Origin: Candidatus Omnitrophota bacterium
Lineage (GTDB): Bacteria; Omnitrophota; Koll11; Gygaellales; JAQTUY01
Length of the DNA stretch: 26,978 nt
Assembly: GCA_028707105.1 (NCBI GenBank)
Contig: JAQTUY010000005.1
Location: forward strand, 1 to 26,978
Direction of reading: 5' to 3'
In this document: piece by piece, positions 5,118 to 26,978 of the stretch
Position numbering within the stretch: the stretch's first letter is position 1
How the letters are laid out: each line of letters starts with the position of its first letter
The notes under the pieces: generated by a model
Told to the model about the DNA's origin: nothing
Seen by the model: only the letters and a program-made list of their open reading frames with translations
Databases searched by the model: none
Made by a program: the position numbers and the translations under genes

Positions 5118-6578
5118 ATGATGGATTTCGGGAAAATAAAAATAGATTGGCCGAAAGTGGGTTTTTTCAGGTTCAAAGAGATCAAGGCAAACCGGCATCT
5201 TTTGACTAACGACGTGGGAGAATATGTCATCCTCTCCGATAAAGAATTTAAAGGCTTTCTTGAGGGGAAACTAAAAAGTACCGATCCCGTTTTTAAAGTC
5301 CTCAGAGAGCAAGGGCTGATCCGCAATCAAATGGATTTTCCGGAGCTGATATCCGGATACCGCAAGAAGAACATGTTCTTATTCCAGGGCCCTTCATTGC
5401 ATATCATTGTATTGACGCTGCGCTGCGACCACAAATGTGTTTATTGCCAGGCTTCTTCAAGAGGGGAATCCGAGCGCGGCTTTGACCTGGATACGGCTAC
5501 CGCCAAAAAAATAGTAGATATTATATTTGCCTCCCCCGCCAAGTCCCTGGCTATTGAATTCCAGGGCGGCGAACCCCTGCTTAACTGGCCGGTGCTCAAG
5601 TTTATAATTGACTATGCTTTAGAAAAAAACAAGACCGAGAATAAGAGCCTGGAATTAAGGCTGGTCTCTAATTTTTCCATGATGGATAAGGAAAAATTAG
5701 CTTTTCTGGTCAAGAACCGCGTGACCCTGTGCACTTCACTTGACGGCCCGGAACACGTGCACAACAAGAACCGCGCCTGGATCAGGGGGAACAGCCATAA
5801 GCATACTATAAAATGGCTGGGAGAAGCCCAGAAGGTCTATAAGTCTAAATTTAAGAACAGGTCGCGGCCCGGAGCGATCGTTACGGTGAGCCGCTATTCT
5901 TTGAAGTATCCCGAGAAGATAGCCGCCGAGTATATCAAGCACGGGATGGAAGCGATATTTGTCCGTCCGCTTACGCCTTTAGGCATGGCCAAAAAGGTCT
6001 GGAGTAAAATAGGCTATACCCCCCAGGAGTACCTCAAGTTCTACAAAACAGCCCTTAATTACATCATCTCTTACGCGTTAAAGCATCCTAAGAGCCGTGT
6101 CCATGAAAATACGGCCAAGATACTTTTAGCCAAGATCCTTACGGAATACGATCCCAACTTTCTGGAATTGCGTTCTCCCTGCGGAGCGGGGACGGGGCAA
6201 GTACTTTATAATTATGACGGCAAGGTCTATACTTGCGATGAAGCGAGAATGGTCGGCGAAGATATATTCTGTATAGGCAATGTCAAAGACGGCTCATACA
6301 AAGATATAGTCGCTCACCCGACCGTGAGGATCCTGAGTATGGCCTCCTGCCTGGAGAATACCGCTTGCGACCTGTGCGTTTACAAGCCATATTGCGGCGT
6401 CTGCCCTATATATAACTGGGCGGAATACGGCAATCTTTTTTCTCAAGCGTCCAATAATGCCAGGTGTATTATATTCGGAGGCATACTGGATCTCCTCTTC
6501 GCCAAATTGGAAGATAAAAAGGTGAGGAAGCTGTTTGAGAAATGGGCGGCGTTCGCCGTGCCCGAGCCTCAAGGTTAA
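5118..6578 (+). CDS. HxsB-like radical SAM/SPASM maturase
   Basis: A 486-residue radical SAM enzyme. An N-terminal region of about 95 residues (with the phrases LTND.GEY and LS..EF) precedes CDHKCVYC (C103, C107, C110), which binds the SAM [4Fe-4S] cluster; GGEP is at 150-153. The C-terminal SPASM-type region has cysteines at 355, 373, 417, 420, 426, 429 and 450 for auxiliary clusters. TSLDGP (206-211), HNKNR (215-219) and YNYDGKVYTCDEARM (364-378) match what I recall of HxsB, the maturase of the His-Xaa-Ser peptide system, as does the length. Known family members modify a ribosomal peptide. Here no HxsA, HxsC or HxsD gene is adjacent, so the substrate is unknown. GAGAGG lies 7 bases before the ATG. 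First gene of the radical SAM run. Confidence 0.75.
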   Translation: MMDFGKIKIDWPKVGFFRFKEIKANRHLLTNDVGEYVILSDKEFKGFLEGKLKSTDPVFKVLREQGLIRNQMDFPELISGYRKKNMFLFQGPSLHIIVLTLRCDHKCVYCQASSRGESERGFDLDTATAKKIVDIIFASPAKSLAIEFQGGEPLLNWPVLKFIIDYALEKNKTENKSLELRLVSNFSMMDKEKLAFLVKNRVTLCTSLDGPEHVHNKNRAWIRGNSHKHTIKWLGEAQKVYKSKFKNRSRPGAIVTVSRYSLKYPEKIAAEYIKHGMEAIFVRPLTPLGMAKKVWSKIGYTPQEYLKFYKTALNYIISYALKHPKSRVHENTAKILLAKILTEYDPNFLELRSPCGAGTGQVLYNYDGKVYTCDEARMVGEDIFCIGNVKDGSYKDIVAHPTVRILSMASCLENTACDLCVYKPYCGVCPIYNWAEYGNLFSQASNNARCIIFGGILDLLFAKLEDKKVRKLFEKWAAFAVPEPQG

Positions 6579-6632
6579 AAATAAGCGCTGTATCGGGCGT
6601 AGCGACTATCGCCACTGCCTCTTATTGAAAGT

Positions 6633-25497: not shown

Positions 25498-26776
25498 GGA
25501 TATCCAGAGGAAACTGAATTATACTTTTCTGAACGGCGTTTTTCTCGTCATTAACGCGATACCGGATGCCTATCTTCTATTGGACGCGCCGCCTTGCGGT
25601 TACAATAAGATGTATTTTGTCCACAAGACGCACGATCTCTTCTCGGACCTGAGCCGCAGGAACACCACCCATAGGATCTGCTGCACGGAAGTCCGGCCGG
25701 ACGATATCATACACGAGAGGGACGATCAGATATCCCGCCTGATGTTAAGGGTTGCCAAGGAGAAGGATTGCGGTGTTGTGCTGGTTTGTTCCATGCCGAT
25801 GGCCACGATCACCGGAACGCAGTACGGATTGATTGCCGATAAGGCGCAGAAAAAGACCTCAATACCGTTACTGGAGATACCTTCAAAGAGCCTGCAAATG
25901 GATTGGCTTGGCGGTTACGACGAAACGCTCCTGGCTATGGCAGGCAAGATGGATCTTAAGAAAAATTCCCAAAAGAGCGGTAATGCCGCTATAGTCGGGT
26001 ATCTTTTTGACAGGAACGAAGGCGACCATATCGGGAACCTTAATGAACTTGCCAGGATCCTGGCCGGATTATCTCTGGATCTGGTGTCGGTATGGCTGAG
26101 CGGCTGTCCATTCGGCCGGCTGCGCGATATCGAGAAGGCAAAAACCATTATATCCCTGCCCTACGGCAGAAAAGCGGCAAGAGAGATCGCGCGCAAAACC
26201 GGGGCGGACCTGATCGAATTAGATATACCGCTGGGGATAGAGAATACGAAGGAATGGGTTTGCCGGATCGGGAGCAGGCTGGGCCGGAGCAAACAAGCGC
26301 AAACCTTCATTGATGAAGAATTAAAGGAGGTCATCCCGGTCAATAATCTGGTGGCCCCCGAATATATCCTGGGCAAGACATTCTCGCTTGCCGCGGACCC
26401 CTATTTATGCCATTGCCTGGCCGGGACATTAACCGACCTGGGGGGCAAGATCAGCCAGGCAGTGATATTCGGAACGCCGCAGGCGAACAAGAACATAGCT
26501 TTTTATAAGCAGCCTTCTTTCGATATTATTTATGAGCCGAGGTACGGCGAGGCCTTCGACCTGGACACGTCAAAAGCGGATATATTCATTGGCAACAGCC
26601 AGATATCCAGCCTCCTGCGCATTAAAAATAATAAAAAGCCGTTTATGGAATTGGGTTTTCCTTCTTTTAATTATCATTGTTTAAGCGTAAGCCCTTTATG
26701 GGGTTTTAAAGGATACGTAAATTTTTTGAACCGGATAATCAACTCCCGAGGAGAAGGGCATGAAGAAAGTCAATAA
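25472..26776 (+). CDS. Nitrogenase-like component-1 subunit (NifD/K, BchN/B-like)
   Basis: 434 residues, close to the usual size of BchN/BchB-type subunits. [10 protein letters not shown] (C42), CC at 70-71 and [11 protein letters not shown] (C106) are candidate ligands for an inter-subunit [4Fe-4S] cluster, matching the three-Cys layout of the family. FPSFNYHC and [14 protein letters not shown] near the end follow the family's GFP...GY.G..... block. No extra Cys/His pair for a FeMo-type cofactor is evident, which suggests a reductase rather than a true nitrogenase. It probably pairs with the preceding gene product as a heterotetramer. AAGGGG (25463-25468) precedes its ATG, and the gene overlaps both neighbours (26 and 17 bases). 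Confidence 0.8.
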
Positions 26777-26978
26777 AATAGTGATATACGGCAAAGGCGG
26801 CATAGGCAAGAGCATGATCGCCAGCAACCTGAGCATGATATACGCCAGGCAGGGCCTGAAGGTGCTGCAGATCGGGTGCGACCCGAAACATGATTCGACG
26901 ATCCGGCTTCTGGGGGAAAGGCAGAAAATAAGGACGGTCATGGATATCGTGGCCAAAAAGAGCCCGGTTAACCTGACC
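26760..26978 (+). CDS. NifH/BchL/CfbC-like reductase ATPase (3' end outside window)
   Basis: Only the first 73 codons are present. The P-loop reads GKGGIGKS (11-18), and the next motif reads GCDPKHDST (39-47), the BchL/CfbC form of the nitrogenase Fe-protein signature (NifH normally has Ala where this has His). These proteins form an ATP-driven homodimer with a [4Fe-4S] cluster, delivering electrons to the paired component-1 subunits encoded just upstream. The cluster cysteines lie beyond the edge and cannot be checked. GAGGAG (26748-26753) sits 6 bases before the ATG, and the gene overlaps the upstream one by 17 bases. Confidence 0.9.

Follow-up and report, generated by a model that had tools for sequence, protein, structure and literature searches.

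The stretch of DNA analysed here (the window, 26,978 nucleotides of contig JAQTUY010000005.1 from a Candidatus Omnitrophota bacterium) carries on its plus strand twelve adjacent genes of the radical S-adenosylmethionine (SAM) type, g1 to g12, the first of which encodes HxsB of the His-Xaa-Ser (Hxs) peptide system. This run is followed by the genes of two component-1-like subunits of a nitrogenase-like reductase (NA and NB) and by the truncated gene of a NifH/BchL/CfbC-type ATPase. We assume, with a probability of roughly two in three, that the block represents a greatly enlarged version of the Hxs peptide-maturation system of the HxsA4 type, extended by a three-part nitrogenase-like reductase. 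In detail, we consider it very likely that the cluster is of the Hxs type, and the reductase is likely to belong to the same pathway because of its co-occurrence and linkage with HxsB. That the reductase acts directly on the peptide is a guess to which we give somewhat less than even odds.

A run of radical SAM genes and its relation to the Hxs system

All twelve proteins encoded between positions 5118 and 23608 match the Pfam Radical_SAM domain. The domains amount to 16, with two apiece in the genes starting at 6633, 12386, 16996 and 20643, and the number of CX3CX2C motifs in the twelve proteins is also exactly 16, whereas 1000 versions of these proteins with shuffled residues had 0.076 motifs on average and never more than 2. 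Six of the 11 junctions within the run overlap and the other five have gaps of 1–54 bases. The first-pass annotation of this DNA had described 12 co-directional, mostly overlapping radical SAM genes with 16 motifs. Pfam matches, motif count and shuffles confirm these numbers, and in view of the junctions the wording about overlaps is fair. The two component-1-like subunits and the BchL-type ATPase announced behind the run are borne out by the Oxidored_nitro matches and by the 73 codons of a real ATPase gene, and with 16 radical SAM domains and a nitrogenase-type reductase, the guess of a long oxygen-sensitive pathway is a reasonable one. The statement that no described pathway has this combination overlooked the identity of g1 with HxsB, the His-Xaa-Ser maturase, and the nitrogenase paralogs of Elusimicrobiota known as ‘group VI’ (see below); instead of the unknown product proposed there, a modified peptide is the probable product of the block. 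The window appears to span the whole contig, which stops inside the ATPase gene, about 200 bases past NB, at position 26978.

The g1 protein exceeds the curated cut-off of the HxsB model (Table 1) and is 47–49% identical to HxsB of the precursor-carrying loci L005, L052, L099, L105 and L110 (L designates the NB loci or regions compared and G the genomes; genomes with the NB family are called NB-positive). In the comparison with NCBIfam, which took in the best 25 matches per protein, the best model belongs to a peptide system for eight of the 12 genes (HxsB, HxsC4 twice, PapB four times and ApyD), but not for g3, g4, g5 and g12. PapB-like domains are present in g2, g6, g7, g10 and g11, and HxsC4/HxsC-like domains in g2, g8, g9 and g11. 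Within these best 25, the matches of g2 to g12 to known families all stay under the curated cut-offs.

In L005, L008, L023 and L052, small open reading frames (ORFs) with Ser-His-Gly (SHG) repeats adjoin NA/NB and radical SAM genes, and a profile search located HxsB next to each of them; HxsB of L005 and L052 is over the curated cut-off. In the precursors of the related loci, a leader and a hydrophobic stretch are followed by many Ser-His-Gly repeats, and most precursors whose end is visible terminate with Trp or Tyr. HxsD over the curated cut-off was found in L005, L099 and L105. A peptide with HxS repeats is present at 15 of the 30 HxsB loci, for which flanks of about 1.5 kb were examined. 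With regard to the phylum Omnitrophota, at least two precursors among the best 120 of 405 matches are named HxsA4 by NCBI, and a named NB relative (53% identity) exists in this phylum as well. A candidate from L031, which passed a loose filter (4 in 25 residues), has a different Ser/His-rich tract and was not counted as a precursor. In L110 (9880-12291) the frame of the SHG precursor slips within the repeats and runs into the next gene, which reflects either an assembly error or a change of the repeat length.

Occurrence of the reductase and its association with HxsB

A scan of species genomes revealed the NB component-1 family at 58 loci in 42 genomes. In the DNA examined around NB, a radical SAM ORF is present at 45 of the 58 loci, which is a lower bound as this DNA includes contigs as short as 3 kb; furthermore, the genes of the loci were called by a simple custom script and errors are to be expected. 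The idea that the block is unique to a single assembly is thus rejected, and the radical SAM and nitrogenase-like genes are not separated in all relatives. As to the conserved synteny that the first-pass annotation had suggested to look for, HxsB and HxsD are grouped in Elusimicrobiota loci with a (SHG)n precursor, the reductase and numerous genes of the radical SAM type, so the gene set is conserved, whereas the order of the window is kept only partly.

HxsB is present in all 42 NB-positive genomes, 41 times over the cut-off and in G277 as two pieces at contig ends, and is absent from the 14 control genomes. Among 198 genomes drawn from Elusimicrobiota, HxsB is contained in 15 of the 16 NB-positive but only 16 of the 182 NB-negative ones (Fisher P 3.5e-13, uncorrected for kinship); 14 of these 15 proteins are over the cut-off and the partial one of G372 is below it. 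The corresponding numbers for 188 genomes from the phylum of G009, here called Myxococcota-type, are 26 of 27 and 40 of 161 (P 6.3e-13, again uncorrected). In both draws up to 7–9 first-look candidates per genome were scored and some absences may be misses. The sulfatase maturase TIGR03942, used as a control family, occurs in four of the 198 and seven of the 188 genomes and none of these 11 is NB-positive, but its rarity makes it a weak control. Since NB is almost always accompanied by HxsB, while many genomes with HxsB lack NB, the Hxs system seems to have the reductase as an optional extra.

Evidence for a common pathway also comes from linkage, as nine of the 15 double-positive Elusimicrobiota genomes have HxsB no farther than 20 kb from NB, compared to 0.94 expected for random placement, and the HxS-repeat peptide is present in the region of all nine. 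In L099, HxsD, HxsB, the peptide, ten more radical SAM genes, a fused NifH:NA gene and NB are all located on one strand. L104 together with L105 contains HxsD, HxsB, the peptide, NifH, NB, NA and eleven radical SAM genes on the side of the reductase, including HemN-like ones, and relatives of both g3 and g4 are found there. A close parallel in gene order is L110 together with L111, which contains reciprocal best counterparts of g1, g6, g7, g9 and g11 in the order of the window, then that of the C-terminal half of g2 (g2C), followed by NB and NifH:NA on the opposite strand. The matches to g9 and g11 in L110 are full-length (35% identity each), g7 reaches 42%, and the N-terminal part of g6 (36–37%) corresponds to the gene that follows the precursor. 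For g2C, reciprocal best matches with 48–50% identity were found in L005, L052, L099 and L111.

A fusion of a NifH-type domain to the N-terminus of NA was observed in 21 of 95 NA matches, or 19 distinct fusions without duplicate loci (L002, L012, L022, L025, L042, L048, L099, L100 and others). An accumulation of the family was detected on one Elusimicrobia contig (C16 of G002, L061–L064), where NB is matched eight times in a region of about 60 kb, with radical SAM genes in between. The nearest named relatives of NB are encoded by a Spirochaetes metagenome-assembled genome (MAG; L001 of G001, about 55% identity) and, next to it, in Omnitrophota. As this MAG is the only NB-positive one among 247 genomes drawn from its phylum, its NB is an outlier through transfer or contamination, and Spirochaetes were rejected as the home phylum of the contig. 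A protein search also listed an NA with 88% identity on an ENA contig of 9957 bases and two more NA homologs on one of 28901 bases.

Gene content of the block

The features of the block are compiled in Table 1.

Table 1. Radical SAM and reductase genes of the window with the matches on which their names are based.
Gene	Product	Position	Strand	Evidence
g1	HxsB	5118..6578	+	TIGR03978 489.4 bits (cut-off 370), model positions 3-466 of 466
g2	radical SAM domain twice, the N-terminal one PapB-like and the C-terminal one HxsC4/HxsC-like	6633..8414	+	NF038332 (HxsC4) and TIGR03977 (HxsC), scores in the text
g3	HemN/HemW superfamily radical SAM protein	8425..9867	+	NF006067 155 bits, under cut-off
g4	HemN/HemW superfamily radical SAM protein	9864..11213	+	NF006067 183.1 bits, under cut-off
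g5	MiaB/RimO-like methylthiotransferase	11203..12384	+	TIGR00089 229.5 bits (cut-off 251); UPF0004 and Radical_SAM
g6	B12-binding-like domain and radical SAM, then a second, PapB-like radical SAM domain	12386..14929	+	PF02310 30.1 bits (gathering 32.1); Radical_SAM matched in two stretches
g7	PapB-like radical SAM protein	14914..16128	+	NF047865 131.1 bits, under cut-off
g8	HxsC4-like radical SAM protein	16119..16994	+	NF038332 91.5 bits, under cut-off
g9	B12-binding radical SAM (ApyD/BchE-like) and HxsC4-like radical SAM	16996..19197	+	PF02310 51.8 bits (gathering 32.1); two Radical_SAM stretches; NF050148 155.3 bits, under cut-off
g10	PapB-like radical SAM protein	19169..20638	+	NF047865 127.5 bits, under cut-off
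g11	PapB-like and HxsC/HxsC4-like radical SAM domains	20643..22493	+	NF047865 124.9, NF038332 96.5, TIGR03977 95.4 bits, all under cut-off
g12	radical SAM/SPASM protein	22490..23608	+	PF13186 and PF04055; best NCBIfam 67.1 bits, under cut-off
NA	component-1-like subunit with N-terminal region of its own	23629..25497	+	Oxidored_nitro PF00148 66.8 bits
NB	component-1-like subunit	25472..26776	+	Oxidored_nitro match
ATPase	start of NifH/BchL/CfbC-type ATPase, truncated by the contig end	26760..26978	+	73 codons with GKGGIGKS and GCDPKHDST

NA and NB are two distinct adjacent genes, each with relatives of its own. Cys 194 and Cys 279 of NA are invariant in an alignment of 20 rows (A2, 20–51% identity), as is Cys 42 of NB in one of 35 rows (A1, 28–64% identity). 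The N-terminal part of NA aligns and models poorly, and the predicted structure of NA is weak (predicted local distance difference test 75.7, with residues 197-238 below 50); in Foldseek it matches component-1 chains, and the highest TM-score, taken by query length, is 0.48. The top NCBIfam match of NA is NifE (36.9 bits), and in a profile search against solved structures NifE is also best (3.9e-25), with MAR chains at 2.2e-24. The fold of NB is DPOR-like and nearest to BchB, with NifN about two Z units lower.

NB reaches 43.3, 39.1 and 23.1 bits with the BchN, BchB and BchZ equivalogs (cut-offs 324, 490 and 529, respectively), and NA has no match to these three at E 0.001. The values for nitrogenase proper are similarly far under the cut-offs (nifK against NB 40.9 vs 427 bits, N2-ase-Ialpha against NA 18.7 vs 486 bits) and nifB is absent from all 42 NB-positive genomes at E 1e-40, the genome of the window not being among the 42. 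Nitrogen fixation was therefore rejected. The ATPase fragment, with its P-loop intact, matches the NCBIfam models in the order CfbC (77.0 bits), BchL (71.2) and NifH (68.7), all under cut-off, which is to be expected of a fragment.

Alternative interpretations

Several findings weigh against an Hxs system with an added reductase. Neither an HxS-repeat peptide, for which all six frames were inspected, nor HxsD was found in the window, whose contig ends inside the run. The HxsC and HxsC4 models match under their cut-offs (at best 110.9 vs 267.9 bits for TIGR03977 and 172.5 vs 500 bits for NF038332, both with g2); therefore, we regard the cluster as a variant of the Hxs system and not as a proven member. 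The relatives scanned from L005, beside a true precursor, likewise score under the cut-off. In each draw one NB-positive genome (G359 and G632) is without HxsB at E 1e-60, the co-occurrence P values ignore kinship, the completeness of the MAGs is not given and at most 7–9 candidates per genome were scored. Furthermore, HxsB is within 20 kb of NB in none of the 26 double-positive Myxococcota-type genomes; in G485 both are on the same contig, about 120 kb apart. In these genomes the Hxs and reductase genes co-occur, yet they are not side by side. Finally, the peptide is a candidate substrate of the reductase.

Among the alternatives, the one that survives best, though unlikely in our view, is the synthesis of a tetrapyrrole or F430-like cofactor, in which NifH, NA and NB would reduce a macrocycle like DPOR or CfbCD, HemN- and BchE-like proteins would trim it and the Hxs genes would be neighbours with another task. 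In PMC11257099 and PMC9391474, the nitrogenase paralogs of Elusimicrobiota are classified as group VI and potentially or putatively assigned to tetrapyrroles, and the HemN-like g3 and g4, the BchE-like domain of g9, the resemblance of NB to BchB and the preference of the ATPase fragment for CfbC are in line with such a role. HemB, which was tried as a test for this pathway, is present in 36 of the 42 NB-positive genomes; this is not decisive and leaves room for tetrapyrrole chemistry, but HxsB occurs in all 42 (MAGs, in which gaps are possible), so that the distribution supports the tetrapyrrole idea less well than the Hxs link. Peptide-system models as the best match of eight of the 12 window genes also speak for the latter. 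In addition, 30 neighbour queries (28 distinct, a small share of the neighbours) revealed no tetrapyrrole gene beyond the HemN- and BchE-like ones, which are under cut-off.

Assembly of a metal cofactor is considerably less probable. Here NA and NB would form a NifEN-like scaffold, the radical SAM proteins would build the cluster and the His-rich HxsA4 would carry or bury the metal. This would fit with NifE as the top match of NA in both NCBIfam and the solved structures, with (SHG)n tracts as plausible metal binders and with a cation efflux gene that adjoins the cluster in L020, but the lack of nifB in the 42 genomes, the small number of invariant cysteines (just two in NA and one in NB) and the greater distance of NB from NifN than from BchB argue against it. 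Least probable, by a small step, are two unrelated anaerobic systems with a common island of radical SAM genes, brought together by lifestyle or kinship alone, since the lack of close linkage in the Myxococcota-type genomes and the frequent occurrence of HxsB without NB, in statistics that ignore kinship, are opposed by the nearly constant presence of HxsB beside NB in two separate phyla, by a rare control radical SAM family that shows no association with NB and by linkage both in the window and, far above expectation, in Elusimicrobiota.

Relation to known systems and proposed function

The closest known system is Hxs (HxsABCD, with the HxsA4/HxsC4 variant; TIGR03978, TIGR03977, TIGR03976 and NF038332), for which PMC9062424 lists HxsB and HxsC as putative maturases. 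The window shares with it HxsB at full score and HxsC4-like domains, and the related loci also share HxsD and (SHG)n precursors. It differs from it by eleven additional radical SAM genes and the nitrogenase-like reductase, by HxsC matches under cut-off and by the precursor and HxsD not being seen within the window. Meheust et al. 2020 reportedly described the nitrogenase paralog ‘group VI’ of Elusimicrobiota, and the NA/NB family of the window is probably the same one. Common to both are nitrogenase-like genes from this phylum; the NB family, however, extends beyond it to Myxococcota-type genomes, to the contig of the window and to one Spirochaetes MAG. Furthermore, the family is tied here to a His-Xaa-Ser peptide system, unlike the tetrapyrrole-related group VI of the citing papers.

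From DPOR (BchL-BchN-BchB) and COR the reductase differs in that NA and NB are far under the curated cut-offs and in its neighbours. For DPOR itself, the title of a reference in PMC11423573 gives three Cys and one Asp as the ligands of its [4Fe-4S] cluster. It shares with CfbCD, the F430 reductive cyclase, the best score of the ATPase fragment, but CfbD is a homodimer according to PMC12176620, whereas NA and NB are two distinct subunits. In MarBHDK and IsrBHDK, according to PMC11423573, a nitrogenase-like reductase with a sulfur substrate adjoins the radical SAM gene nflB or isrB, and chains of MAR rank among the best matches of NA to solved structures. There the neighbour is a single radical SAM gene, while the window has a dozen, mostly peptide-maturase-like ones. 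The literature search, which left out most subscription papers, found no work joining the nitrogenase-like family with the Hxs system, and the main text of the Omnitrophota paper PMC10066038 contains none of the terms ‘nitrogenase’, ‘radical SAM’ and ‘His-Xaa-Ser’. Both the Hxs system and the Elusimicrobiota nitrogenase paralogs are known; joining them is new with respect to the literature searched.

Concerning the function, we propose that the radical SAM enzymes would modify the repeated His/Ser/Gly tract of the precursor, while the NifH-type protein may spend ATP and feed low-potential electrons into NA/NB. These would pass through a cluster bound by the conserved cysteines of NA and NB. 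NA/NB, which would resemble DPOR in construction and lack a FeMo-type cofactor, could then reduce or reductively close a group made by the radical SAM enzymes on the peptide. It is possible, though less than even in our estimate, that the modified His-Xaa-Ser repeats are reduced or reductively cyclised in this way to a peptide of an undescribed kind, which might serve as a redox or metal cofactor. The modified peptide would probably be exported afterwards, and in some loci a protein with a weak match to type IV leader peptidases may contribute. In L005 (13345-14565) this match reaches 27.8 bits (PF01478, cut-off 26.5), the protein is conserved with relatives in L099, L103, L104 and L108, and it is a candidate for the predicted precursor-cleaving enzyme. 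Through the tie between the two, the HxsA4 peptide becomes a concrete candidate for the substrate of the reductase, and the Hxs system gains an unexpected ATP-driven reductase. If it is true that the reductase acts on the peptide, this would be a new substrate class within the nitrogenase superfamily.

Additional features of the loci and the window

An aKG-HExxH-type peptide beta-hydroxylase (TIGR04267, 120.7 vs 40 bits) is encoded in L022 (191-1621) about 6 kb from NA/NB, which is a further hint at a peptide substrate. In L020 a large protein (4191-7124) adjoins NifH-NA-NB and matches DUF483, a match tested for L020 alone; its family, F5, has 10 members distributed over 6 loci, and two of these loci represent the same genome region.

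In the window, the 115-amino-acid ORF immediately upstream of HxsB (4576-4923) encodes a PilZ-domain protein and not HxsD; it has no BLAST relative among the Hxs loci compared. The short ORFs between the PilZ gene and HxsB contain no HxS repeat. Near HxsB we counted four promoter-like sites (shuffle mean 2.0) and three terminator-like sites (shuffle mean 1.5), which were not used for the interpretation. The left part of the window (2-4468) is occupied by a 5'-open ORF of 1488 amino acids, which has no Pfam or NCBIfam match beyond TPR repeats; by eye, its start resembles a kinase and two motifs of the HExxH type can be recognised.

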